Of a DNA stretch of 64,000 nt, positions 1,706 to 15,157 are shown in pieces. Source of the DNA: Halalkalicoccus sp. CG83 (GTDB lineage: Archaea; Halobacteriota; Halobacteria; Halobacteriales; Halalkalicoccaceae); contig NZ_JAZDDH010000001.1 in the NCBI RefSeq assembly GCF_037081715.1, forward strand, positions 558,001 through 622,000. Direction: 5' to 3'. Position 1 is the first letter of the stretch; every line of letters starts with the position of its first letter. Position numbers and translations under genes: made by a program. The notes under the pieces are model-generated. The model did no database searches. It had not been told where the DNA came from and saw only the letters and a list, made by a program, of their open reading frames with translations.

Positions 1706-2707
1706 TTAGGCGAACTTCGCTTCGAGAAGCGTCACTAACAGATAGGCCGCCAACCGTTGTGTGCCCTCCGTGGAATCGTAGGGCGGCGAGACCTCCATCA
1801 GGTCGACCGCGCCTACCGCGTCGTGGCTTCCGAGCACGCGCATCGCGGCGAGCGCCTCGCGCGCGGAGAGGCCGCCGGGGACCGGCGTACCGGTACCGGG
1901 GGCGACGGACGGGTCGACCCCGTCGATGTCGAAGGTGACGTACACCGCGTCCGTTCCGTCGGCGGCCGCCGAGACCGCTCGCTCGACGACCCGTTCGATC
2001 CCCGTTTCTCGTACTTCGTCCATCGTGAAGAGGTTCAACCCCACCTCGTCGGCGAACTCGAAGAAGTCGGGACTCTCGTAGCCGCGGATCCCGACCTGGC
2101 TGACGTACTCGTACTCCGTATACGAGGACTCGGCGGCGTGGTGGGTGCTCGAGCCATGGAAATGCTCGCCGAAGACGGCACTTTCGGAAACGGTGTCGGT
2201 GTGGGCGTCGATCTGGACTAATCCGACTGAATCGGCGCCGCTTCCCTCAGCGAACCCCTCGAAGGAGGGGTACGTACAGTAGTGGTCGCCCCCGAGGAGC
2301 ACGGGAAACGCCTGCTCGGCGACCGTCGCGACGTGCGCCCGGACGCTCTCCGCGGTCGTCTCGTGGTCCATCGGAAATATCGGAACGTCCCCGCAGTCGG
2401 CGATCGAGAACGAGGAGAGATCGACCTGCTCTCCCGTGCTCACGTTCGTCAGCCCGCCCTTGTAGCCCGAGAGGTACGCCCACCAGCCGCTGGCCCGGCG
2501 GATCGCCTCGGGGCCGTAGCGCGCGCCGGGGCGGTTGCTCACCGCGCCGTCGTAGGGCGCGCCGAGCACGCCCACGTCGAACGCGTCGAGCGTCTCTACC
2601 CCGTTCGGCTCGCCCTTCAGGAACGTGTTGAGGCCGGCGTACGCGAGCTCGACGTTCGATCCCGACACCCGATTACGGAACGCGGCGGCCGGCGAGCCGT
2701 CGCTCAT
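1706..2707 (-). CDS. Agmatinase-family ureohydrolase
   Basis: A 333-residue arginase/agmatinase-superfamily enzyme. The binuclear manganese signatures are visible: LLGGDHYCTY, the DAHTDT motif, and FDIDGVDPSVAPGTGTP. Family members hydrolyse guanidino compounds (agmatine, guanidinobutyrate, arginine and relatives) to urea and an amine. DAHTD is found in several subgroups, so the substrate is uncertain. Agmatinase is the commonest archaeal role, feeding polyamine or agmatidine metabolism. The length is normal. The ATG start overlaps the stop of a short upstream ORF (ATGA), and the nearest TATA element lies about 140 bp upstream, so translation is probably coupled to that leader. Confidence 0.8.
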   Translation of the reverse strand: MSDGSPAAAFRNRVSGSNVELAYAGLNTFLKGEPNGVETLDAFDVGVLGAPYDGAVSNRPGARYGPEAIRRASGWWAYLSGYKGGLTNVSTGEQVDLSSFSIADCGDVPIFPMDHETTAESVRAHVATVAEQAFPVLLGGDHYCTYPSFEGFAEGSGADSVGLVQIDAHTDTVSESAVFGEHFHGSSTHHAAESSYTEYEYVSQVGIRGYESPDFFEFADEVGLNLFTMDEVRETGIERVVERAVSAAADGTDAVYVTFDIDGVDPSVAPGTGTPVPGGLSAREALAAMRVLGSHDAVGAVDLMEVSPPYDSTEGTQRLAAYLLVTLLEAKFA

Positions 2708-2817: not shown

Positions 2818-3116
2818 GGTTCGAACGGCGTGGAGTGACCGTTTATACGTTGTGCGCGGATTCCGGAGCGTTCGATCGTCACGGCCCACCGATCAGTCGA
2901 CCGGCCGTGCGCCCGGCCGCTTGCTCGACCGTCCTCAGCGTCACGGTGGTCGTCGCGGAGCGTGGCGGTCTACGACTTCGGCTCGGATTTCTCCTTCCTC
3001 TGGACCGGCCTCGAGCCTCGCGGGTTCGCCGTCGCAAGAGAAGCTCGAACGCTGGCTTCGAGCATCGAGTCGGACAGCCCGAGCACCTTTATCCGCGAAC
3101 GTCGTGATTGATACGC

Positions 3117-4838
3117 ATGCTCCACGCCGAGGGCCCGCTCCTGTCGATCGACCTGACCGAACGCACCGTCGAGACCGAGGAGATCGACGACGTTCTCGAG
3201 TCGTTCATCGGCGGCCGCGGGGTAGCGACCGCGCTCGCACACGACCGCCTGCCGTTCGACGCCGACCCGCTCGGCCCGGAGAACCGCCTCTATCTCGCGA
3301 CCGGCCCGATGCAGCTCTCCCGGATGAGCTTCACCGGCCGTACGAACGCGACCGCCATCTCGCCGCTGACCGGCGGGCTGGCCTCCTCGAACGCCGGCGG
3401 CTTCATCTCGCGTAACTTCGCGGGCGCTGGCTACAGCGCCGTCGAGATCAGCGGCGAGAGCGACGAGCTCCTCGTGGTCCACGTCACCGACGAGGTCGAC
3501 GAGTCCGACTCGTCGGGCAGCCAGACGGAGTCTGGTCCTCGTGTCGAGTTCGAGGCGGTGCCCGACCTCGAGGGAGCGGAGGTTCCCGCGGTGACCGACT
3601 ACCTCCGCGATTCGCACGGTCTGGGCGCCGAACACGTCGCGGCGATCGGCCCCGCCGGCGAGAACCTCGTCAGGTTCGCCTCGATCATGACGAGCGAGAG
3701 CCGGGCGTTCGGCCGCGGCGGGCTGGGCGCCGTCCTGGGCGCGAAGAACCTGAAGGCGATCACGTTCGACGGCGAGTCGCATCCCGAGATCGAGATCGAC
3801 CCCGTCCAGATGGAGGTCCACGGCGAGGCCGGCCGGAGCGACCACATCATGAAGCGCCAGGGAACGACGAGCGTCACGGACCTCGCCAACGAGGTGAACG
3901 GGATGCCCACCCGCTTCTTCTCGGAGCAGTCGTTCGAGGGGATCGAGGGGATCAACGGCGACGCGGTCGAGTCGAAGAAGTTCAAGAAGGGCACCTGCTC
4001 GTCGTGCGCGTTCGCCTGCAAACTCCCGACGAAGGACGAGGAGCGCGGCGTCGAGACCGAGGGCCCCGAGTTCGAGACGGTGATGGCGTTCGGCTCGAAC
4101 TGCGCGGTCGACGACATCGTCGACGTGATGCAGTCGAACGAGCTCTGCGACCGGCTCGGGATGGACACGATCTCCTGTGGCAACACCGTCGCGGCGTACC
4201 TCGCGAGCGAGGAGCGCTTCGGCGACGTCGAACTGATCCACGAGACCGTCGAGAAGATCGCCCATCGCGAGGGGATCGGCGACACCCTCGCCGAGGGGAT
4301 CGCGCGCTGTCACGACGAGCTCGGCGTGCCCAACTGGACGACCAAGAACCTCGACTTCGCCGCCCACGAGGGCCGAACCCTCCACGGCCAGGGGCTCGCC
4401 TACGCCGTCGCGAACCGCGGGGGCGATCACATGTACTCGACCTTCTACGCCTGGGAGTACCCGCTGGTCGACAAGAGCGAGGCGTTCCCTCAGGACGGCT
4501 TCGAGGGCAAGCCGCCCGCGGTCGCCGAACAGGAGAACACCCGCGCGCTCGAGGACTGCGGCGTGATCTGTCGGTTCTCGCGCGGAATGATGAACCCCGA
4601 GCGCTACGAGGCGCTGTTCGGCGCCGACTACGACGAACTGCTCGACGTGGGCGCCCGGATCGTCGAACTCGAGCGCCACTTCAACAACCGGCGCGGTTTC
4701 GACCGTTCGGACGACGAGCTTCCCTACGATCTCGAGGGCATCGAGGAGGCGATCTCCGAGTACTACGAGGTCCGCGGCTGGAACGACGACGGCACCGTCC
4801 CCGGGGGTACCGTGGGGGACACGCCCGCCGACGACTGA
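3117..4838 (+). CDS. Aldehyde ferredoxin oxidoreductase (tungsten)
   Basis: A 573-residue AOR-family enzyme, close to the usual 600. Such enzymes oxidise aldehydes to carboxylic acids with ferredoxin, using a tungsten-bispyranopterin and a [4Fe-4S] cluster. Visible are the N-terminal GGRGVA pterin region, an FGRGGLGAVLGAKNLKAI segment, the cluster motif CSSCAFAC (C-x2-C-x3-C), and a late cysteine in LEDCGVICRFSRG that would supply the fourth ligand. ATG 3117 is preferred over TTG 3108 because a TTTATC element at 3088-3093 lies 27-29 bp before it, giving a leaderless mRNA. The gene stands 110 bp before eutB, so acetaldehyde made from ethanolamine is a plausible substrate (inference). Confidence 0.88.
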   Translation: MLHAEGPLLSIDLTERTVETEEIDDVLESFIGGRGVATALAHDRLPFDADPLGPENRLYLATGPMQLSRMSFTGRTNATAISPLTGGLASSNAGGFISRNFAGAGYSAVEISGESDELLVVHVTDEVDESDSSGSQTESGPRVEFEAVPDLEGAEVPAVTDYLRDSHGLGAEHVAAIGPAGENLVRFASIMTSESRAFGRGGLGAVLGAKNLKAITFDGESHPEIEIDPVQMEVHGEAGRSDHIMKRQGTTSVTDLANEVNGMPTRFFSEQSFEGIEGINGDAVESKKFKKGTCSSCAFACKLPTKDEERGVETEGPEFETVMAFGSNCAVDDIVDVMQSNELCDRLGMDTISCGNTVAAYLASEERFGDVELIHETVEKIAHREGIGDTLAEGIARCHDELGVPNWTTKNLDFAAHEGRTLHGQGLAYAVANRGGDHMYSTFYAWEYPLVDKSEAFPQDGFEGKPPAVAEQENTRALEDCGVICRFSRGMMNPERYEALFGADYDELLDVGARIVELERHFNNRRGFDRSDDELPYDLEGIEEAISEYYEVRGWNDDGTVPGGTVGDTPADD

Positions 4839-4948
4839 GGACCGTACGCCGCTCCACGGAAGCGCAACCGGGCTTTCGTGACCGCAACTGCGCTTTGATA
4901 GCACGGGGCGAACGGTGAAGTGCACGCCTCGCCTACCCCTCGGGCGAG

Positions 4949-6307
4949 ATGTCGACAGAGCCGATTTCGAAGGGAACGGGGGAGTTCGACTCGCTTCGAG
5001 CGGTGTTGGCGAAGGCGAACGAGCGAAAGACCGGCGACGAACTCGCTGGAATCGCGGCGGACTCCGACGCCGAACGAGTCGCCGCCAAACGCGCGCTCGC
5101 CGGAACCACCCTCGAGACGCTCCGGGAGAACCCGGTCGTCCCCTACGAGGAGGACGAGGTGACCCGCGTCATCCAGGACGCGGTCCGCGAACCGGTCTAC
5201 GAGCGCATCAAGGAGTGGACCGTCTCCGACCTCCGGGAGTTCCTGTTGAGTGCGACCGATCGCGAGATCCGCGCGATCCGTGCGGGGCTCACCAGCGAGA
5301 TGATCGCCGCGGTGACGAAGCTGATGTCGGCGATGGACCTCGTGCTCGCGACCTCGCGCATGACGGTCACGGCACGGTGTAACGCCATGGTCGGCGAGCA
5401 AGGGACGCTCTCGTTTCGCCTCCAGCCCAACGACCCGTCCGACGACGTCGACCGGATCCTCGACGGCGTCCGCGAGGGGCTCTCCTACGGCGTCGGCGAC
5501 GCGGTGATCGGGATCAACCCCGTCGAGGACGGCGTCGCGACGACGACCCGGATTCTGGAGGCGACCCACGAGTTCATCGAGGCACACGACGTGCCGACGC
5601 AGAACTGCTGTCTCGCACACGTCAGTACCCAGCTCGACGCGATCCGGGAGGGTGCGCCCGCCGATCTGCTCTTTCAGAGCCTCGCGGGCACCGAGACCGG
5701 AAACGACGAGTTCGGCGTCGACGTCGCGCTGCTCGACGAGGCCCACGAGGTCGCCCAGCGCCACTGTACCTCGTCGGGACCGAACGTCACCTACTTCGAG
5801 ACCGGCCAGGGCTCGGAGCTCTCGGGCGACGCCCACCACGGCGTCGATCAGCTCACCCTCGAGGCGCGCTGTTACGGCCTCGCGAAACGCTACGACCCGT
5901 TTCTCGTCAACACGGTCGTCGGGTTCATCGGCCCCGAGTACCTCTACGACGGCAAGCAGGTGATCCGCGCCGGCCTCGAGGACGTGTTCATGGGGACGCT
6001 CCACGGAATTCCGATGGGGATCGACGCATGCTACACCAACCACATCCAGGCCGATCAGGACGACGTCGAGGCGCTCTCGATGCTGCTGAGCGCGGCGGGG
6101 GCGAACTTCTTCATCACCGTCCCGATGGGCGACGACGTGATGCTCAACTACCAGTCCAACAGCTACCACGACGCCGCGGCGCTCCGGGAGCTGTTCGATC
6201 TGCGCCCGGCGCCCGCGTTCGAGACGTGGCTCGAGGAGCGTGGCTTCCTCGAGGACGGCCGGCTGACCGATCGGGCGGGCGACCCGACGGTCCTCGCGGG
6301 ACCATGA
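4949..6307 (+). CDS. eutB: Ethanolamine ammonia-lyase large subunit
   Basis: A 452-residue protein, matching the family length of about 453. With EutC and adenosylcobalamin it cleaves ethanolamine to acetaldehyde and ammonia. EutB signatures include LTSEMIAAVTKLMSAMDL, GTLSFRLQPNDP, GDAVIGINPV, QNCCLAHVSTQ and a C-terminal IDACYTNHIQADQDD region that belongs to the TIM-barrel active site. The residues around the substrate pocket appear intact. The stop overlaps the eutC start (ATGA). Upstream, a TTTGATA element at 4894-4900 may give a separate promoter with a leader of roughly 25 bases. This is unrelated to the 'EutB' of bacterial ectoine operons. Confidence 0.93.
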   Translation: MSTEPISKGTGEFDSLRAVLAKANERKTGDELAGIAADSDAERVAAKRALAGTTLETLRENPVVPYEEDEVTRVIQDAVREPVYERIKEWTVSDLREFLLSATDREIRAIRAGLTSEMIAAVTKLMSAMDLVLATSRMTVTARCNAMVGEQGTLSFRLQPNDPSDDVDRILDGVREGLSYGVGDAVIGINPVEDGVATTTRILEATHEFIEAHDVPTQNCCLAHVSTQLDAIREGAPADLLFQSLAGTETGNDEFGVDVALLDEAHEVAQRHCTSSGPNVTYFETGQGSELSGDAHHGVDQLTLEARCYGLAKRYDPFLVNTVVGFIGPEYLYDGKQVIRAGLEDVFMGTLHGIPMGIDACYTNHIQADQDDVEALSMLLSAAGANFFITVPMGDDVMLNYQSNSYHDAAALRELFDLRPAPAFETWLEERGFLEDGRLTDRAGDPTVLAGP

Positions 6308-7050
6308 GCGAACAGCGGGCGCCGGACGATGAGGACGACGCACTCGAACGGATCGCGTCGCGCTCGCCCGCTCGTCTCGGCGTCGGCCGCGCGGGTCCCC
6401 GACCGCGGACCGAGACACTGCTCGAGTTCCGCGAGGACCACGCGACCGCCCGCGACGCCGTGCTCACGCGGGTCGATGACGCGCTGCTCGAGGAACTCGG
6501 CCTCGTTCGGGTGCGAAGTCTCGCAAGCGACAAGGAGGAGTTCCTCGCACGGCCGGATCGCGGCCGCGAGATCTCCCCGGAGACCGCCGAAACCCTGCGT
6601 GAGTGCTGCGAGCACGACCCGCAGGTGCAGATCGTCGTCAGCGACGGGCTCAGCTCCACCGCGGTCGAGGCGAACCTCCCCGACCTGCTCCCCGTCCTGC
6701 TTGAGGAGCTCGGGGATGGAGAGCTCGACGTCGGCACGCCGGTGTTCGTCGAGTACGGCCGCGTCGACGTGATGGACGCGATCGGCGAGGAGCTCGGCGC
6801 CGAGAGCTGCGTGATCCTGATCGGCGAGCGTCCCGGGCTGGCGACCGCCGAGAGCCTGAGCGCCTACTTCGTCTACGGCCCCGAGCGGGGGACGCCCACC
6901 TCGCGAAAGTCGGTCGTCTCCAACGTCCACCCCGGCGGGCTCCCGCCGGTCGAGGCCGGCGCACAGATCGCCGACCTGCTCGCGGAGATGTGCGAGAAAC
7001 GCGCGAGCGGGCTCGAACTGCGCGAGGACGACCGTGAGTTCGCCACCTGA
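6304..7050 (+). CDS. eutC: Ethanolamine ammonia-lyase small subunit
   Basis: A 248-residue cobalamin-binding subunit. It starts at the ATG that overlaps the eutB stop. Family landmarks are IASRSPARLGVGRAGPRPRT near residues 14-33, ALLEELGLVRVRSLASDKEEFLARPDRGR, IVVSDGLSSTAVEANL, a VLIGERPGLATAESLSAYFVY stretch that contacts the nucleotide loop of B12, and SNVHPGGLPPVEAG near the end. It forms the hexameric EutBC complex. Overlap on both sides indicates a translationally coupled eutB-eutC-eutA unit. Confidence 0.92.
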   Translation: MSEQRAPDDEDDALERIASRSPARLGVGRAGPRPRTETLLEFREDHATARDAVLTRVDDALLEELGLVRVRSLASDKEEFLARPDRGREISPETAETLRECCEHDPQVQIVVSDGLSSTAVEANLPDLLPVLLEELGDGELDVGTPVFVEYGRVDVMDAIGEELGAESCVILIGERPGLATAESLSAYFVYGPERGTPTSRKSVVSNVHPGGLPPVEAGAQIADLLAEMCEKRASGLELREDDREFAT

Positions 7051-8461
7051 GACGTCCGAGACGCTGACGAGCGTCGGGATCGACGTCGGAACGACCACGA
7101 CGCAGGTCGTCGTGAGCGACCTCAGGGTTCGGACGACCGGCGCCGGCGGCGCGGCCCGCCCCGAGATCGTCGAGCGGACGGTCCGCCACCGGGGCGCGAT
7201 CCACGGGACGCCGCTCTCGAGTCCGGAGACGGTCGACGTCGAGGCCGTCGCCGCCCTCGTCGAGGGCGAACTCGAGGCGGCCGGACTGAGTTCGAGAGGG
7301 ATCGACACTGGCGCGGTGATCGTCACCGGCGAGGCGGCGCGCAAGCGAAACGCCGAGGCGCTCGCGAACCGGCTCGCCGACGGGAGCGGCGACTTCGTCG
7401 CCGCGAGCGCGGGCGCAGCTCTGGAAGCGATCCTCGCCGGGCGGGGCTCGGGCGCCGCCGCGCGAGCCGAGGAACGCGGTGAGACGGTCGCGAACGCGGA
7501 CGTCGGCGGCGCGACGACGAACGTCGCGATCTTCGAGGGCGGGGCGGTCCGCGAGACGCGCTGTCTCGACGTCGGCGGGCGACTCCTCACGCTCGAGGCG
7601 GGGGTCGTGACCGACCTCACGGAGCCCGCCCGCCGGCTCTGTGAGGCGATCGGACTCCCGATCGAACCCGGCGACGAACCCTCGGCCGACGAGCTTCGAA
7701 CGCTTGCCGGCGCGATGGCCGATCGGATCGTCGACTCTCTCGTCGGCCCGCCGTACGACGCGCTTACCCGCGAGCTCGCGATCGGGATGCTGCCCGACGA
7801 ACCCGTCGAGTACGACGCGGTGGTCTTCACCGGCGGCGTCGGGCGGCTGTTCGACGCCGATGTCGACTCCGGGGAGTACGGTGACGTCGGCCCCCTGCTC
7901 GCGTCGGCGCTCTCGGATCGGATCGCCGATTCGGGGCTCCCCGTCAGACGGCTCGCGGAGGACATCCGGGCGACGGTCGTCGGTGCGGGCAGCCACGCGA
8001 CGACGCTCAGCGGGCGGACCGTCCGCTTCGATCCCGATCGGCTCCCCCTTCGCGACCTGCCGGTCGTCTCTGCGGGCGACTGTTCGGAACTCGAGGATGG
8101 CGCGCTCGAAGCACGTTTCGAGGCCGCCGCTCGGTCGGCTGCCGAACGCCACCCGGGGACGGCGTACGCGCTCGCGATCGACGACGTGGGATCGCTCTCG
8201 TACGACCGATTGGGCGCGCTCGCCGACGCGCTCGTGCGCGTCGTGGACGACGCGATGCCGGCGGTGCTCCTGACGCGTCAGAACTGCGCGAAGGCGCTCG
8301 GCGGCGCGGTCGCCCGTCGCCTCGACGCCCCCGGACCGATCGCGATCGACGAGGTCGGCGCGGCGGACGGCGACTACCTCGACGTCGGCGAGCCGATCTC
8401 GGGCGGGGAGGCCCTCCCGGTCGTCGTCAAGACGCTCGCGTTCGGCGCATCGTCACGGTGA
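7034..8461 (+). CDS. eutA: Ethanolamine ammonia-lyase reactivating factor
   Basis: A 475-residue EutA-family ATPase of the actin/Hsp70 fold. It reactivates EutBC by exchanging damaged cobalamin for fresh adenosylcobalamin with ATP. The N-terminal phosphate-1 loop SVGIDVGTTTTQVVVSDL, a second phosphate loop NADVGGATTNVAIFEGG and the adenosine region AVVFTGGVGRLFD are visible. GTG 7034 is the start; it overlaps eutC by 17 bp. The presence of EutA supports a working, self-maintaining lyase rather than a stray gene pair. No shell-protein genes (EutS/K/L/M/N) or EutE/D/G follow. Confidence 0.9.
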   Translation: MSSPPETSETLTSVGIDVGTTTTQVVVSDLRVRTTGAGGAARPEIVERTVRHRGAIHGTPLSSPETVDVEAVAALVEGELEAAGLSSRGIDTGAVIVTGEAARKRNAEALANRLADGSGDFVAASAGAALEAILAGRGSGAAARAEERGETVANADVGGATTNVAIFEGGAVRETRCLDVGGRLLTLEAGVVTDLTEPARRLCEAIGLPIEPGDEPSADELRTLAGAMADRIVDSLVGPPYDALTRELAIGMLPDEPVEYDAVVFTGGVGRLFDADVDSGEYGDVGPLLASALSDRIADSGLPVRRLAEDIRATVVGAGSHATTLSGRTVRFDPDRLPLRDLPVVSAGDCSELEDGALEARFEAAARSAAERHPGTAYALAIDDVGSLSYDRLGALADALVRVVDDAMPAVLLTRQNCAKALGGAVARRLDAPGPIAIDEVGAADGDYLDVGEPISGGEALPVVVKTLAFGASSR

Positions 8462-8532
8462 GTCGTCGAGGCGGATATCGCCGGTCGTAGTGATTTCGTG
8501 CCGGCTCGTTCGACGGAGGAGCAACGATTATA

Positions 8533-8555
8533 ATCCGGGATACAGAATCCCGGAT
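8533..8555. promoter_or_regulatory. Perfect 9-bp inverted repeat operator between TATA and start of tctC
   Basis: ATCCGGGAT at 8533-8541 and its exact reverse complement ATCCCGGAT at 8547-8555 are separated by 5 bp. The element overlaps the end of an ATTATAA box (8527-8533) and ends 2 bp before the ATG at 8558, so it fills the space where RNA polymerase would start. Such placement is typical of a repressor site. The nearest candidate regulator is the FilR1-type protein encoded at 12781-13560. A hairpin at the mRNA 5' end is an alternative only if transcription starts further upstream than the TATA predicts. Confidence 0.6.
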
Positions 8556-8557
8556 CG

Positions 8558-9580
8558 ATGTCGAGAACCGACAACGTATCTCACGGACGTATCGGTCGAC
8601 GCGCGTATCTATCCGGACTCGGAGCCGCGGGGATCGGGACGTTCGCCGGCTGTGTTGGCGACCTGGAGGGCGACGAAGAGGAGTTTCCCGCACAGGACAT
8701 CGAGATGATCTGCCCGTGGGACGCCGGCGGGGGGACCGACCAGACAGGCCGGCAGCTGGCGGATCTCGGGGAGGACCACCTCGACACGTCGTTGTACGTG
8801 AGCAACCAGACGGGCGGGAGCGGTAGCGTTGGCTTCAACGAGATCGCGAACGCCGAACCGGACGGCCACACCGTCGGCGTCACCACCGTCGAGATCTGTA
8901 CGATCTCCCATCTCGGGATCGCCGAGGTCAACCACGAGGACCTCGACGCCGTAATGCAGTACAACTTCGATCCCGCCTCGCTCACCGTCCACGAGGACGC
9001 ACCGTACGGCAGCCTCGAGGAGTTCGTCGACTACGCCGAGGAGAACCCCGGCGAGATCAGCGTCTCGAACTCCGGCACCGGCGCGATCTGGCACCTCTCC
9101 GCGGCGGGGTTCGCCCAGGAGGCGGGCATCGAACTCGATCACGTCGGCTACGACGGCGGCGAACCCGCCACGCAGGCGGTCGTCAGCGGCGAGGTGCAGG
9201 CGACGACCGCCAGCGCCGCCGAGGTCGCCCCGCAGGTCCAGGACGGTCCCCTCGAGATCCTCTCGGTGTTCGGTGAGGAGCCGGTGAACATCTTCCCCGA
9301 CGTCCCGACGCTCCCCGATCAGGGCTACGACTTCGTGATGGGCGCGTGGCGCGGGCTGACGGTCCCGTCGGGAACGTCGGAGGACCGGATCGGAACCCTC
9401 GAGGACGCCTTCACCCAGGTCTACGAATCCGAGGAGTTCCAGTCGTTCATGGAGGAGCGCGGGTTCGGGCTGGTCTACCGCGACGCCGAGGAGTTCGGCG
9501 AGTTCATGGACTCGGAGTACGACCGCTTCGGCGAGGTCATCGACGAACTCGGGTTGGCCGGCAGCGAGGGTGACGGGTAG
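8558..9580 (+). CDS. tctC: TctC-type substrate-binding lipoprotein of a tripartite tricarboxylate transporter
   Basis: A 340-residue periplasmic-type receptor of the TTT/Bug family. A twin-arginine motif (RR at residues 14-15) is followed by a short hydrophobic run and a lipobox Cys at residue 32 (FAGC), so it should be exported folded and lipid-anchored outside the membrane. IEMICPWDAGGGTDQTGRQL is the diagnostic Bug-family ligand loop. The ligand is unknown; family members bind carboxylates such as citrate, aromatic acids or short acids. The ATG is about 28 bp after the TATA box, hence leaderless. It heads a tctC-tctB-tctA operon. Confidence 0.88.
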   Translation: MSRTDNVSHGRIGRRAYLSGLGAAGIGTFAGCVGDLEGDEEEFPAQDIEMICPWDAGGGTDQTGRQLADLGEDHLDTSLYVSNQTGGSGSVGFNEIANAEPDGHTVGVTTVEICTISHLGIAEVNHEDLDAVMQYNFDPASLTVHEDAPYGSLEEFVDYAEENPGEISVSNSGTGAIWHLSAAGFAQEAGIELDHVGYDGGEPATQAVVSGEVQATTASAAEVAPQVQDGPLEILSVFGEEPVNIFPDVPTLPDQGYDFVMGAWRGLTVPSGTSEDRIGTLEDAFTQVYESEEFQSFMEERGFGLVYRDAEEFGEFMDSEYDRFGEVIDELGLAGSEGDG

Positions 9581-9589
9581 CGACTCCGA

Positions 9590-10087
9590 ATGGTTCGTCG
9601 ACTCCCACATTCGGATCTGATCGCCGCCGGGGCGTTGCTCGCGCTTTCTGCGGGCGTCTTCGCCGTTAGCGCCGGCTTTCCCGGCGGCCGGAGCGGCGAT
9701 CCCGGCCCGGCGTTCTTTCCGCGGCTCGTCGTCGGCTCGATCGCGCTGCTCGCGGTGGTTCAGGCGGTCCAGTACGCCCGAAGCGACCGTCGAACGGTCC
9801 ACGAGATCGACGCCGCCACGACCCGGCGGGTCGCGCTCGTGGCGGCGTTTCCGGTGGTGTACGTGTTCGTCATGCCGTTCGTCGGCTTCCTACTCACGAC
9901 GATCGGCTTCCTCGCGGCGTTCATGTGGTACTCCGGAGCGCGATCGATCCCGGCCATAACGGGGGGTTCCGTCGGCGTCACGTTGGTGTTGCACTACGTC
10001 TTCGCGGAGTTCTTTCGCGTTCCGCTTCCGGAGGGGATCGTTCCGATCGCCCGGCTGTTGCCGTCGCTCTGGATCGGGGTGATCTGA
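9590..10087 (+). CDS. tctB: TctB-type small membrane subunit
   Basis: A 165-residue protein with about four hydrophobic segments (around residues 10-30, 45-60, 80-100 and 118-140), matching the TctB family, the small partner of the TctA permease. The ATG is 9 bp after the tctC stop and the stop is 1 bp before the tctA start, so the three genes form one transcript. An FPGGRSGDPGPAFFPRLV segment after the first helix is typical of the family. Confidence 0.82.
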   Translation: MVRRLPHSDLIAAGALLALSAGVFAVSAGFPGGRSGDPGPAFFPRLVVGSIALLAVVQAVQYARSDRRTVHEIDAATTRRVALVAAFPVVYVFVMPFVGFLLTTIGFLAAFMWYSGARSIPAITGGSVGVTLVLHYVFAEFFRVPLPEGIVPIARLLPSLWIGVI

Positions 10088-10088
10088 C

Positions 10089-11579
10089 GTGGGGGTCGTC
10101 GACTTCTTCGCCGCGGGCGCGCAGCTGGTGTTCGAACCGGTCGCGCTCGCGATGATCGTGATCGGCGTCGTCGTCGGACTAACGATGGGGTCGCTTCCGG
10201 GCATGACCGCCACGATGACCGTCGCCGTGCTCGTCTCGTTCACCTTCGGGATGGAGCCCGCCCAGGGGATGATGCTGCTTTTGGGCATCTACGGCGGCGC
10301 GCTGTACGCGGGGTCGATCCCCGCGATCCTCATTCGCACGCCCGGCACTCCGAGCGCCGCCGCGACGGTGTTCGACGGCTTCCCGCTGGCCGAGCAGGGA
10401 AAGGCAGGCCGCGCGATCGGCATCGCCACCGTAGCGTCGTTCGTCGGCGGCGCGATGAGCGTGGTGTTCCTCGCGCTGCTCGCGCCCCAGATCGCCACCG
10501 TCGCGCTCGCCTTCGGATCACCGGAGTACTTCGCGCTCGCGGTCTTCGGACTGACGATCATCGCGAGCATCAGCGGCGATTCGGTCGTAAAGGGGCTGCT
10601 CTCGGGGCTGCTCGGCATGTTGCTCGCGACGGTCGGACTCGACCCGAACCTCGGTTTCCCGCGCTTCTCGCTCGGATTCGAGGCGCTCACCGCCGGGATC
10701 CAGTTCATCGCCGTGATGATCGGACTGTTCGGCATCGCCGAGGGGTTGAATCGCTACCGTGCGGGCATCGAGACGACCGAGGTCGAACAGGACCTCACGA
10801 GCGTGCTCCCGACGCTCGAGGACCTGAAGAACATCCGCAACGTCACGCTCGGATCGGGACTCGCGGGCACGTTCATCGGCTCGATCCCGGGTGCGGGCGG
10901 CGACATCGCCTCGTTCGTCACCTACAGCGAGGCCAAACGCTGGGCGAGCGACGCCACTCCGCCCTTCGGCGAGGGGAACGTCCTCGGGGTGGCTGCGGCC
11001 GAATCGGGTAACAACGCGAGCACCGGTGGCGCGCTCATTCCGACGCTCACGTTGGGGATCCCCGGCGACTCGGTGACCGCGATCCTGATCGGGGCGTTGT
11101 TGGTTCACGGCCTCCAGCCCGGCCCGGGGCTGTTCCGCGACGAACCCGGACTGGTGTACGCGATCTTCATCGGCTTCTTCCTCGTCTACGTGCTGATCCT
11201 CGTCTTCGGGTTGATCGGCGCGCGCTACTGGGCGCGGCTGATCGACTTTCCCGCGATGTACCTCTGGCCGTGTATCTTCGTCCTCTGTGTCGTCGGCGCG
11301 ATCGCCCTTCGAGGAAACCTGCTCGACGTCTGGGTGATGCTCGGCGCAGGCGTGTTAGGATATCTCATGCGAATGGACGACTACCCCCTCGCGCCGATGG
11401 TGCTCGGGCTCATCCTCGCGCCGATCGCCGAGTCGAACCTCCGCCGGTCGCTACAGATCTCCAACGGCTCGCTCGACGTCATCTACACGAGCCCCCTCGC
11501 GATGGTGATACTCGCCCTCGCCGTCCTCTCGCTGTTCTCGCCGTTCGTCCGGGAGCTCGTCGGCCGCTACCGGGCGTGA
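10089..11579 (+). CDS. tctA: TctA-type large membrane permease subunit
   Basis: A 496-residue protein with about 12 membrane segments. Conserved TctA loops are present: GLTMGSLPGMTATMTVAVL near the N terminus, YAGSIPAILIRTPGTPSAAAT, and the second repeat GTFIGSIPGAGGDIASFVTYSEAKRWA...PFGEGNVLGVAAAESGNNA. It forms the Na+- or H+-coupled channel that takes substrate from the lipoprotein receptor. GTG 10089 is used because it sits directly after the tctB stop. The duplicated PG-rich loops show the internal repeat usual for this family. Confidence 0.92.
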   Translation: MGVVDFFAAGAQLVFEPVALAMIVIGVVVGLTMGSLPGMTATMTVAVLVSFTFGMEPAQGMMLLLGIYGGALYAGSIPAILIRTPGTPSAAATVFDGFPLAEQGKAGRAIGIATVASFVGGAMSVVFLALLAPQIATVALAFGSPEYFALAVFGLTIIASISGDSVVKGLLSGLLGMLLATVGLDPNLGFPRFSLGFEALTAGIQFIAVMIGLFGIAEGLNRYRAGIETTEVEQDLTSVLPTLEDLKNIRNVTLGSGLAGTFIGSIPGAGGDIASFVTYSEAKRWASDATPPFGEGNVLGVAAAESGNNASTGGALIPTLTLGIPGDSVTAILIGALLVHGLQPGPGLFRDEPGLVYAIFIGFFLVYVLILVFGLIGARYWARLIDFPAMYLWPCIFVLCVVGAIALRGNLLDVWVMLGAGVLGYLMRMDDYPLAPMVLGLILAPIAESNLRRSLQISNGSLDVIYTSPLAMVILALAVLSLFSPFVRELVGRYRA

Positions 11580-11630
11580 GGCCTCGGACGACGTGAAGGT
11601 TTTTCCACGTCCCCTCCGTCGATCGACGCG

Positions 11631-12581
11631 ATGCGAGTCGTCGTCACCGACTACAACTTCGAGGACCTGGGGATCGAGCGCGAGGTGCTCGAGTCGATCG
11701 GCGCGGAGGTCGTCGGCGCGGACGCCGAAAGCGAGGCGGAGGTCCGCGAGGCCGTCGAGGGCGCCGACGCACTGTTGAACCAGTACGCTCCGGTCGGTCC
11801 CCCCGTCTTCGACGCCGCTCCCGACCTGCGGGCGGTCGGCCGGTACGGCGTCGGCGTCGACACCGTCGATCTCGACGCCGCGACCGACCACGGGGTGTGG
11901 GTCCTCAACGTTCCGGACTACTGTGAGGACGAGGTCTCGACGCACGCCCTCTCGCTGCTTCTTGCCTGCGAGCGCCGGGTGGCGCGGTTCGATAGCGCGA
12001 TCGAGGACGGCGAGTGGGACTGGAAGGGCGGTCGGCCGATCTACCGCCAACGCGGCCGGACCCTCGGACTCGCGGGCTTCGGGAAGATCCCCCGCCGGCT
12101 CGCGGCGAAGGCCTCGGCGCTGGGGATGGACCCCGTCGCCTACGACCCCTACGTCGACCGCGAGGAACTCGCCGACCACGGCGTCGAGAAGGTCGACTTC
12201 GAGGCGCTGCTTGAGCGCTCGGACGCGATCTCGGTCCACACGCCGCTGACCGACGAGACCCGCGGCCTGTTCGACCGCGAGGCGTTCGAGGCGATGGACG
12301 AGGAGAGCGTGATCGTCAACACCGCCCGCGGCGCGGTGATCGACGCCGAGGCGCTCGCGGACGCGCTCGAGGCTGGCGAGATCCGAGGGGCGGGCCTCGA
12401 CGTCCTTCCCGAGGAACCCCCTGATGACTCGCCGCTGGTCGGTCGCGACGACGTCGTGCTCACGCCCCACGTCGGCTGGTACTCCGAGGAGTCGATCGTC
12501 GAGCTTCGACGGACGGTCGCCGAGGACGTCGCACGCGTCCTCGAGGGCGAGGAACCCGCGAACCCGGTCAACGAACTCTGA
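11631..12581 (+). CDS. D-isomer-specific 2-hydroxyacid dehydrogenase (CtBP-like)
   Basis: A 316-residue NAD(P)-dependent dehydrogenase that interconverts 2-hydroxy and 2-oxo acids. Visible are VGRYGVGVDTVDLDAA, the nucleotide-binding LAGFGKIPRRLAAKA (a divergent GxGxxx loop with Pro where Gly is usual), VNTARGAVIDAEAL with the catalytic Arg, LDVLPEEPP with the Glu, and TPHVGWYSEES with the His. The loop matches the C-terminal-binding-protein subgroup rather than SerA. A TTTTTCC stretch near 11598 lies about 30 bp upstream, suggesting its own leaderless transcript. Its position after tctA hints that the transported ligand may be a hydroxy acid (weak inference). Confidence 0.82.
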   Translation: MRVVVTDYNFEDLGIEREVLESIGAEVVGADAESEAEVREAVEGADALLNQYAPVGPPVFDAAPDLRAVGRYGVGVDTVDLDAATDHGVWVLNVPDYCEDEVSTHALSLLLACERRVARFDSAIEDGEWDWKGGRPIYRQRGRTLGLAGFGKIPRRLAAKASALGMDPVAYDPYVDREELADHGVEKVDFEALLERSDAISVHTPLTDETRGLFDREAFEAMDEESVIVNTARGAVIDAEALADALEAGEIRGAGLDVLPEEPPDDSPLVGRDDVVLTPHVGWYSEESIVELRRTVAEDVARVLEGEEPANPVNEL

Positions 12582-12780: not shown

Positions 12781-13560
12781 TCAGGACTCAGGAGACGTGA
12801 TCTCTCCTCCGGTCTCCCGGTATCGATCGAGATGCGCCCGCGCCCACTCGGTGGCGCGATCCGCCTCCAGCGTGATCGAGCCGCGGACGTCGCCGTCGTC
12901 GTGGACGCCGATCCAGACCACCCGTTCGTCGAACAGCGCGAGCACGACGCCCAGGCCCCGTTCAGGCGGGATCCGCCGAAGCGTGGCGTTCTCCGCCGCG
13001 AGCGCGTCTCCGAGCTCGTCGTCGTAGTTCGCCCGGAGCCGATCGACGAGGGGGCCGTCGAGGAACAGTTCGACCTCGGTCCCGCCCGTGGTGATCCGCC
13101 GGTGGAGGACGGCGATCGACGAGGGGAACGCGACCGGCATGTAGCAGCGCGTTCGATCGTGGGTCTCGATCAGCTCCTCGAACCGGTCGAGCGGTTCGTG
13201 AGGGATGGGTCGTTCGGCGAGGACGACCTCCGCGCCGTCGAGGACCTCCGGTTCGATTTCGAACCCCGCCGGGAGTAGAACCAGGAGCTCGCGGGCGCGA
13301 TCGAGCGTCTCGAACCGATCCACGAGCCGACGGAACTCCGCGTAGGCGAGTTCGCCGAACAGCGTCAGCGCGTACCCCTCGTCGGTTCGCTCGAGGACGT
13401 CGGCCGATTCGAGCTCGCGAACCGCACGGTCGACCGTGGCTCGGGAGACGTCGAGCCGCTCGGTGAGCTCTCGTTTCTCGACGATTCCCTCCCCGACGCG
13501 CTCGATCAGCTCCGTGCGCCGAAGGAGCTTCTCGAGGAGGGTTCGTTCGGAGCTACTCAT
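12781..13560 (-). CDS. FilR1-type winged-helix transcriptional regulator
   Basis: A 259-residue cytoplasmic protein. Residues about 25-65 form a winged helix-turn-helix (EKRELTERLDVSRATVDRAVRELE). The rest (LLVLLPAGFEIEPEVLDGAEVVLAER...) matches the FilR1/MTR domain of archaeal regulators, including the typical VELFLDGPLVDRLRANY segment. Haloarchaea have many such one-component regulators of metabolism and transport. A GACTTTTG element on the minus strand at about 13585-13592 gives a leaderless start at 13560. The target is unknown; the adjacent tct operon with its palindromic operator is the nearest candidate. Confidence 0.8.
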   Translation of the reverse strand: MSSSERTLLEKLLRRTELIERVGEGIVEKRELTERLDVSRATVDRAVRELESADVLERTDEGYALTLFGELAYAEFRRLVDRFETLDRARELLVLLPAGFEIEPEVLDGAEVVLAERPIPHEPLDRFEELIETHDRTRCYMPVAFPSSIAVLHRRITTGGTEVELFLDGPLVDRLRANYDDELGDALAAENATLRRIPPERGLGVVLALFDERVVWIGVHDDGDVRGSITLEADRATEWARAHLDRYRETGGEITSPES

Positions 13561-13813
13561 GGAGGCGATTGAATCCCCATCCGCAAAAGTCTATTCCTTG
13601 ACATTTGTCTCCCAACCGAAATCCGGGACGTCTACGGAGCCCCGAATCACGTCCTCAGATGAACTATTTACCTTTCAGGATGACTAAATCATCCATGACA
13701 TGTCTCTCAGTTTTGTTTTTAGTCCTACTGTTTCAAGCATCACCGTGCGGGATCGCGAATCGGGCGGGACGGGTCGACGGCGTTAATATTCTGGGACCGT
13801 AACGCTAGTGGGA

Positions 13814-15157
13814 ATGAGTGATTCGGCGCTTTCGGTGGTCGAGTTCTTGCTGACGGCTCGCGTCTACAGCGACGACCAGCGCTTCGACGAGAACGACCTA
13901 CCGTCGTCCTACCGAAAGGTGTTCTGGGAGGGCGGCTCGATTGATCGCCCGCTCTCGGTGACCGAGAAGGGTGCCCGTGAGGCGACCGGGGTCGACGAGC
14001 CGTGGGCGGCGGTCTCGGACCTGATGTTCACCCAGCGAGAGGAGTTCTCGGGCTCGATCTCGCTCAACCAGCCCGAGATGGCCACCGAGTGGTTCGCGAC
14101 CCGGACCGACGAAGAACGCCTGGCACACAACCCGACGCTGGCGGCGTACTTCGAGGACGGGGAGTTCGACGTCGAGGCCGACTACGAGGCTGCCCGCGAG
14201 AACGTCAGGCCGATCCAGGCCGATCGGATGTGGATCGACAACCTGCTCGAGACCTACTTCGACGCCGACGACGAGGAGGAGGCGGAGATGCTCGATCTCG
14301 TCGACATCCGCGCGCCCGAGGAGATCGAGACCACGCTCGATGACCTCGTGCTGACGACGAACCAGGAGAGCGAAATCAACAAGATCGTCAAGGCGATCGA
14401 GCACCGCGAGTATCTCGCGCAGATCGGACTTCGGGAGATCGGCAAACTGCTGTTCGTCGGTCCGCCCGGCACCGGCAAGACGACGACGTCACGGGCGCTC
14501 GCACACGACCTCGACCTGCCGTTCGTCGAGGTGAAGCTCTCGATGATCACCTCGCAGTACCTCGGCGAGACCGCGAAGAACGTCGATAAGGTGTTCGAGG
14601 TGGCGAAACGCCTCTCGCCGTGCATCCTCTTCATCGACGAGTTCGACTTCGTCGCCAAGACCCGACGCAGCGACGAACACGCCGCGATCAAGCGCGCGGT
14701 GAACACGCTGCTCAAGAGCATCGACGAGGTGAGCCTGATCCAGGACGACGTGCTGTTGATCGGCGCGACCAACCACCCCGACCAGCTCGACGCCGCCGCC
14801 TGGCGCCGCTTCGACGAGATCGTCAACTTCCCCAAGCCCGACCACCGGATGCGTGCGGACATCTTCTCGGTGATCACCCGCGAGATGGAGATCTCGGGCT
14901 ACGATCCCGAGGAGATCGCCGAACGCACCGACGGCCTCACCGGCAGCGACCTCCGGATGGTGCTTCGCGAGGCCGTCCTCGAGGCGCTCACCGAGAACCG
15001 CCGCACGCTCACCCAGCGCGACCTGCTCGACGCGATCGACGACTTCGAGGAGCGAAACACGTTGAAGGACCTCGACATGATCGAGGGCGACCACGAGGCG
15101 CTCGTCGCAGGCGGCACCGGCGGCGACCACGGTCACGACCACGATCACGACCACTGA
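13814..15157 (+). CDS. AAA ATPase with C-terminal His-rich tail
   Basis: A 447-residue protein. Residues 1-190 are an acidic N-terminal domain with no recognised fold. An AAA module follows: Walker A GPPGTGKTT at about 216-224, Walker B CILFIDEFD at about 270-278, a sensor stretch LLIGATNHPDQLDAAAWRRFD, and an arginine-finger and lid region. It ends in GDHGHDHDHDH, a metal-binding-like tail. Related haloarchaeal proteins are cytoplasmic ATPases of unknown substrate. ATG 13814 is preferred to GTG 13808 because the TTAATATT element at about 13782-13789 is 28 bp upstream. An imperfect inverted repeat (GGATGA...TCATCC, 13678-13694) lies further upstream. Confidence 0.85.
   Translation: MSDSALSVVEFLLTARVYSDDQRFDENDLPSSYRKVFWEGGSIDRPLSVTEKGAREATGVDEPWAAVSDLMFTQREEFSGSISLNQPEMATEWFATRTDEERLAHNPTLAAYFEDGEFDVEADYEAARENVRPIQADRMWIDNLLETYFDADDEEEAEMLDLVDIRAPEEIETTLDDLVLTTNQESEINKIVKAIEHREYLAQIGLREIGKLLFVGPPGTGKTTTSRALAHDLDLPFVEVKLSMITSQYLGETAKNVDKVFEVAKRLSPCILFIDEFDFVAKTRRSDEHAAIKRAVNTLLKSIDEVSLIQDDVLLIGATNHPDQLDAAAWRRFDEIVNFPKPDHRMRADIFSVITREMEISGYDPEEIAERTDGLTGSDLRMVLREAVLEALTENRRTLTQRDLLDAIDDFEERNTLKDLDMIEGDHEALVAGGTGGDHGHDHDHDH

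Follow-up and report, generated by a model that had tools for sequence, protein, structure and literature searches.

We analyzed a 64,000-nucleotide stretch of the Halalkalicoccus sp. CG83 genome (NCBI RefSeq assembly GCF_037081715.1, contig NZ_JAZDDH010000001.1, positions 558,001 to 622,000 of the forward strand; hereafter the window), in which the genes for ethanolamine ammonia-lyase (eutB and eutC) and its reactivating ATPase (eutA) follow a gene of the aldehyde:ferredoxin oxidoreductase (AOR) family (Table 1). Pfam matches and coordinates confirmed the arrangement given in the original prediction, in which eutB, eutC, and eutA overlap one another and begin 110 bp after the AOR gene. The overlaps are 4 bases between eutB and eutC and 17 bases between eutC and eutA. 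All four genes were intact, with the catalytic and Fe-S residues kept.

Table 1. Features of the AOR-eutBCA locus and its flanks (window coordinates).
Feature	Position	Strand	Remarks
AOR-family tungstopterin aldehyde:ferredoxin oxidoreductase, 573 aa	3117..4838	+	Pfam AFOR_N/AFOR_C
TATA-like box CTTTATCC of the AOR gene	3087..3094	+	Putative, read from the sequence; ~23-30 nt 5' of ATG
Conserved palindromic element CTTTGATAGCACGGGGCGAAC 5' of eutB	4893..4913	+	Probable own promoter/operator of eutBCA
EutB, ethanolamine ammonia-lyase large subunit	4949..6307	+	PF06751, E 1e-202
EutC, ethanolamine ammonia-lyase small subunit	6304..7050	+	PF05985, E 6e-83
EutA, reactivating ATPase	7034..8461	+	PF06277, E 4e-125
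Agmatinase/arginase-family gene	1706..2707	-	Resident AOR neighbor in Halalkalicoccus; same placement in L105-L109
TctC-TctB-TctA tripartite carboxylate-type transporter	8558..11579	+	Pfam TctC/TctB/TctA; 96 bp past eutA
D-2-hydroxyacid dehydrogenase (PGDH-like)	11631..12581	+	Last gene of the stretch absent from the relatives' locus
FilR1/HVO_A0261-type regulator	12781..13560	-	Resident flank of the locus
AAA ATPase	13808..15157		After the FilR-type regulator, as in L107 and L109

EutB aligned with the Listeria structure 2qez (E 4e-177) and EutC with the E. coli structure 3any (E 3e-63), in both cases over nearly the whole length. Residues R157, Q159, N190, E284, F326, and D359 of EutB match the substrate-site residues of the E. 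coli enzyme, which we take to be R160, Q162, N193, E287, F329, and D362, and all six are conserved. With these residues kept, EutB and EutC are assigned by sequence to ethanolamine ammonia-lyase. EutA scored 418 bits against PF06277 (cut-off, 27), and NCBIfam equivalog models for EutA matched it with scores under their cut-offs; an EutA profile adjoining eutBC assigns the protein to the EutA reactivases. The predicted splitting of ethanolamine by EutBC to cytosolic acetaldehyde, with EutA as a helper, is well supported.

Both AFOR domains were present in the AOR open reading frame (E 1e-63 and 1e-79), whose best solved relative was the Pyrococcus furiosus AOR (1aor, E 1e-75). Four cysteines (Cys294, Cys297, Cys301, and Cys485), the EGPE motif at 315-318, and His438 were invariant across 72 haloarchaeal homologs. 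Having AFOR_N, AFOR_C, the four Fe-S cysteines, EGPE, and the active-site His, the predicted protein is classed as an AOR, and it is plausible that it is a tungsten-type enzyme acting on acetaldehyde. The AOR of Thermoanaerobacter oxidizes acetaldehyde with a Km of ~8-10 µM (PMC10816221), and Pelobacter expresses acetaldehyde-oxidizing AORs (PMC4275255). The AORs of Thermoanaerobacter X514, Pelobacter, and P. furiosus belong to the same family as the window protein, with the Fe-S cysteines and active-site Glu and His kept, but serve ethanol, acid, or amino-acid metabolism (PMC10816221, PMC4275255).

The original prediction had also reported that shell genes and EutE were missing, and this holds for the whole genome. 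The bacterial microcompartment shell protein PF00936 was found in 0 of 40 eut-bearing haloarchaeal genomes, with positive controls, and the EutH permease was found neither in the host nor in any of 14 genomes tested. The host encodes only two intact PF00171 aldehyde dehydrogenases. Their nearest NCBIfam models, below cut-offs, were succinate-semialdehyde and alpha-ketoglutarate-semialdehyde dehydrogenases, and the acylating EutE-type model was nearest to neither. The host genome also retains pieces of a third aldehyde dehydrogenase gene, which carry stop codons (G000:C3:40116-40816; L227, L228). The host thus has EutB, EutC, and EutA in common with the Eut metabolosome of Salmonella/E. coli and Firmicutes but has none of its shell genes, EutE, or EutH. 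The locus resembles a short shell-free eut operon in carrying eutBC without shell genes, but no aldehyde dehydrogenase or ethanolamine permease is linked to it; its neighbors are AOR and TctCBA.

We examined 391 Halobacteria genomes, of which 40, including the window host, carried eutB. The original prediction raised the question of whether AOR accompanies eutBCA in other haloarchaea, and this was true of a part of them: at 13 of the 39 other eut loci, eutB was preceded within ~5 kb by a same-strand AOR ortholog (66-77% identity). With the window included, AOR lay within ~5 kb of eutB at 14/40 loci, where rough chance expectation is <1 genome; this recurrence cannot be chance placement, though these are related genomes. 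The linked loci span Halalkalicoccus, a second genus of the same family, Natrialbaceae, and the metagenome-assembled genome (MAG) L154. Their EutB proteins, together with that of L154, all fell in one clade of 24 (SH-aLRT 97), and haloarchaeal EutB as a whole formed one group in the tree. AOR orthologs were present in 36/40 eut genomes vs. 236/351 others (Fisher p 0.002, uncorrected for kinship). No AOR was found in the flanks (up to 10 kb) of 55 bacterial eutB loci. In MAG L154, the row AOR-eutB-eutC-eutA, all on the + strand, is continued after 45 bp by a + strand gene for an AMP-forming acyl-CoA synthetase, which a stretch of unknown bases interrupts. On paper, this row would hold every step from ethanolamine to acetyl-CoA. 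Directly upstream of it lies a large gene (L154:161-2926) that resembles DNA methyltransferases and contains a stretch of unknown bases.

The palindromic element between AOR and eutB has the consensus GTTTGGTAAC-N5-RCAAAC, and the window copy fits 11/13 specified positions. At 18/23 loci of the EutB clade, at least 10 of the 13 positions were matched at -52 to -63 from the start codon (p<=0.02 each vs. random segments), and several loci of the neighboring clade also carried the element. It was kept whichever gene (AOR, a major facilitator superfamily [MFS] gene, or another) stood upstream. A weak TATA-like GGTGAAG lies 3' of the element, ~28-34 nt before the ATG, where a leaderless transcript would need one. 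These features make it very probable that eutBCA has a regulated promoter of its own, and a single AOR-eutBCA transcript is doubtful because a conserved promoter-type element sits between the two. The palindrome is apparently eut-specific; a search for the exact element over 37 genomes gave 12 matches, about the control level, 5 of which were eutB promoters, and we claim no wider regulon. No cobalamin riboswitch was found in the window, where the sole RNA feature was one tRNA. An inverted repeat (AAGCGCA...TGCGCTT, 4870-4913) in the AOR-eutB gap overlaps or abuts the conserved element.

Comparison with relatives revealed the background into which eutBCA is set. In Halalkalicoccus relatives L107 and L109, the order is arginase-family gene, AOR, acyl-CoA synthetase, thiolase, FilR-type regulator, and AAA ATPase; the window looks like this resident order with the AOR-to-FilR stretch replaced by eutBCA-tctCBA-dehydrogenase. 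The best match to the acyl-CoA synthetase elsewhere in the host was only 45%, and the ortholog therefore appears lost; the thiolase was found on another contig at 88%. In eut-less Natrialbaceae, the genes after AOR often encode an MFS protein, a thiolase, and a DUF5806 protein, and in eut-bearing members eutBCA occupies the corresponding place, in most of them with an opposite-strand MFS gene between AOR and eutB. The L046 locus has no AOR, and there thiolase and AAA come directly after eutBCA. The AOR tree followed host families, and eut adjacency required at least 4 to 7 changes on it. Inheritance of AOR and eut as one pair was rejected because the AOR tree tracks the hosts and most AOR genomes have no eut. 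One old entry of eutBCA into the AOR locus, followed by many losses, is the simplest account; recombination through shared flanks could also have produced the pattern.

In the route that we propose, adenosylcobalamin-dependent EutBC would cleave ethanolamine into ammonia and acetaldehyde, and EutA would reactivate EutBC. The eutBCA genes, presumably switched by their own upstream element, would have been placed in an old haloarchaeal aldehyde/acyl-CoA locus, in which the resident AOR may serve as a general ferredoxin-linked aldehyde oxidoreductase. This AOR would most likely act in the cytosol, oxidizing the acetaldehyde from EutBC to acetate, and the acetate would become acetyl-CoA via an AMP-forming acyl-CoA synthetase. 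Such a logic of aldehyde to acid to acyl-CoA is suggested because AOR adjoins acyl-CoA synthetase and thiolase in the eut-less L107 and L109. We give a probability of roughly 0.5 to this shell-free ethanolamine module, in which a resident general AOR takes acetaldehyde to acetate and then acetyl-CoA is formed; the enzyme activities, the acetaldehyde hand-over, and the co-use of AOR and eutBCA are predicted from gene content. Oxidation of acetaldehyde by AOR, as originally predicted, is favored by the recurrent adjacency, the L154 row, and the micromolar Km of AOR elsewhere (PMC10816221), but the enzyme is not eut-specific.

Several observations weigh against the proposed route. AOR occurs in ~272/391 haloarchaea at the ortholog level (304 matches minus 32 weak ones, tallied by hand), mostly without eut, and where eut is absent it keeps its own neighbors (acyl-CoA synthetase or MFS, and thiolase). 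No AOR was nearby at 26/40 eut loci, and the ortholog was absent altogether from four eut genomes. The eutBCA genes are probably transcribed separately from AOR, judging by the element between them. The idea that 3117-8461 is a dedicated unit is weakened on these grounds, namely AOR mostly without eut, an AOR locus that persists eut-less, and an upstream element belonging to eutBCA. The host has five AOR-family genes in total, and the four others, together with the two aldehyde dehydrogenases, could handle acetaldehyde. The original prediction had named independent placement of AOR and eut in relatives as the finding that would speak against it, and AOR and eut were apart in all five other Halalkalicoccus genomes compared. 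Their EutB proteins are of other lineages (G134, G195, G215, and G225 form a clearly separate clade and G060 falls in a still more distant one), which therefore indicates that eut can exist without an adjacent AOR, not that the window pair was split.

Since the AOR is itself set among acyl-CoA synthetase and thiolase genes, a passive neighborhood is a serious rival that we consider quite possible. Here, eutBCA would have entered the AOR/acyl-CoA synthetase/thiolase locus long ago and stayed by synteny; the substrates of the AOR would be different aldehydes, such as fatty or branched ones, and acetaldehyde would be cleared by a different AOR or by a generic NAD(P)-dependent aldehyde dehydrogenase. 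The conserved eut-less locus with acyl-CoA synthetase, MFS, and thiolase, the 26 separated loci, the promoter element of eutBCA, and the changes of adjacency on a host-following AOR tree all fit this explanation, as does the acyl-CoA synthetase, which is nearest MbcS and not acetate-CoA ligase. It is opposed by the maintenance of adjacency across several genera and families, by the operon-like row of L154, where eutBCA sits between AOR and acyl-CoA synthetase, and by the few other aldehyde dehydrogenases of the host.

An unlikely reading is that ethanolamine mainly supplies nitrogen, that the acetaldehyde is lost or is turned into ethanol by an alcohol dehydrogenase, and that AOR is not required. 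Acinetobacter, which uses ethanolamine as a nitrogen source without a shell and whose EutBC can work in Salmonella without EutE or EutA, offers a precedent (PMC9426561), and a glutamine-synthetase-family gene near some haloarchaeal eut loci hints at nitrogen use; however, no alcohol dehydrogenase was among the annotated neighbors, and the recurrent neighbor is an oxidoreductase. The glutamine-synthetase-family gene was seen near eutBCA in L034, L037, L043, L044, L060, and L065, which belong to other haloarchaeal eut lineages, and most of these loci had ABC transporter genes; a glutamylation route or a nitrogen link is possible there. The Streptomyces gamma-glutamylethanolamide (GlnA4) route is likewise shell-free but starts by glutamylation, not EutBC (PMC6529630), and the window has no such gene beside eut. 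It is very improbable that TctCBA imports some other small amino alcohol, which the EutBC-like enzyme converts to an aldehyde that AOR then oxidizes: TctCBA follows eutA in the window and adjoins eut of another lineage in G134, and EutH was not found, but all six ethanolamine-site residues are conserved, TctC orthologs lie away from eut in three congeners, and TctCBA has its own promoter-like box.

The TATA-like box of tctC was located at 8528-8534, and the three congeners with TctC away from eut are G060, G195, and G215. In G134 (L045), TctABC adjoins eut divergently, beside an eutB of a different lineage, and one stop codon interrupts the TctC match. TctCBA was rejected as a constant eut partner because it was present at 2/40 loci. 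For the TctCBA-dehydrogenase stretch after eutA (8558-12581), ethanolamine-related transport by TctCBA is possible, and the link of TctCBA to eut is uncertain.

Short eut operons of bacteria, for example those of Acinetobacter baumannii, Pseudomonas, and Klebsiella, resemble the window in encoding EutBC without shell genes, with acetaldehyde formed in the cytosol (PMC9426561, PMC3306737). The Acinetobacter operon has the ald1 aldehyde dehydrogenase upstream, whereas the window has a ferredoxin-linked AOR, the order eutB-eutC-eutA, and an archaeal host; the loci of bacterial relatives mostly have the order eutA-eutB-eutC. Our literature search found no paper linking AOR to ethanolamine catabolism, nor one on archaeal ethanolamine with AOR. 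Because shell-free eutBC was already known in bacteria, what is new is the link to AOR and the occurrence in an archaeon.

More tentatively, haloarchaea may have evolved a shell-free, ferredoxin-linked AOR-EutBCA-acyl-CoA synthetase route that replaces EutE and the microcompartment and has stayed linked, fully or partly, in Halalkalicoccaceae, Natrialbaceae, and the related MAG. How shell-free bacteria cope with the acetaldehyde from ethanolamine ammonia-lyase is an open question (PMC9426561), to which a ferredoxin-linked AOR, if the proposed route is true, would be a simple chemical answer. The gene set and the promoter element make the route testable in culturable haloarchaea, and, if true, it would place ethanolamine catabolism firmly in Archaea.

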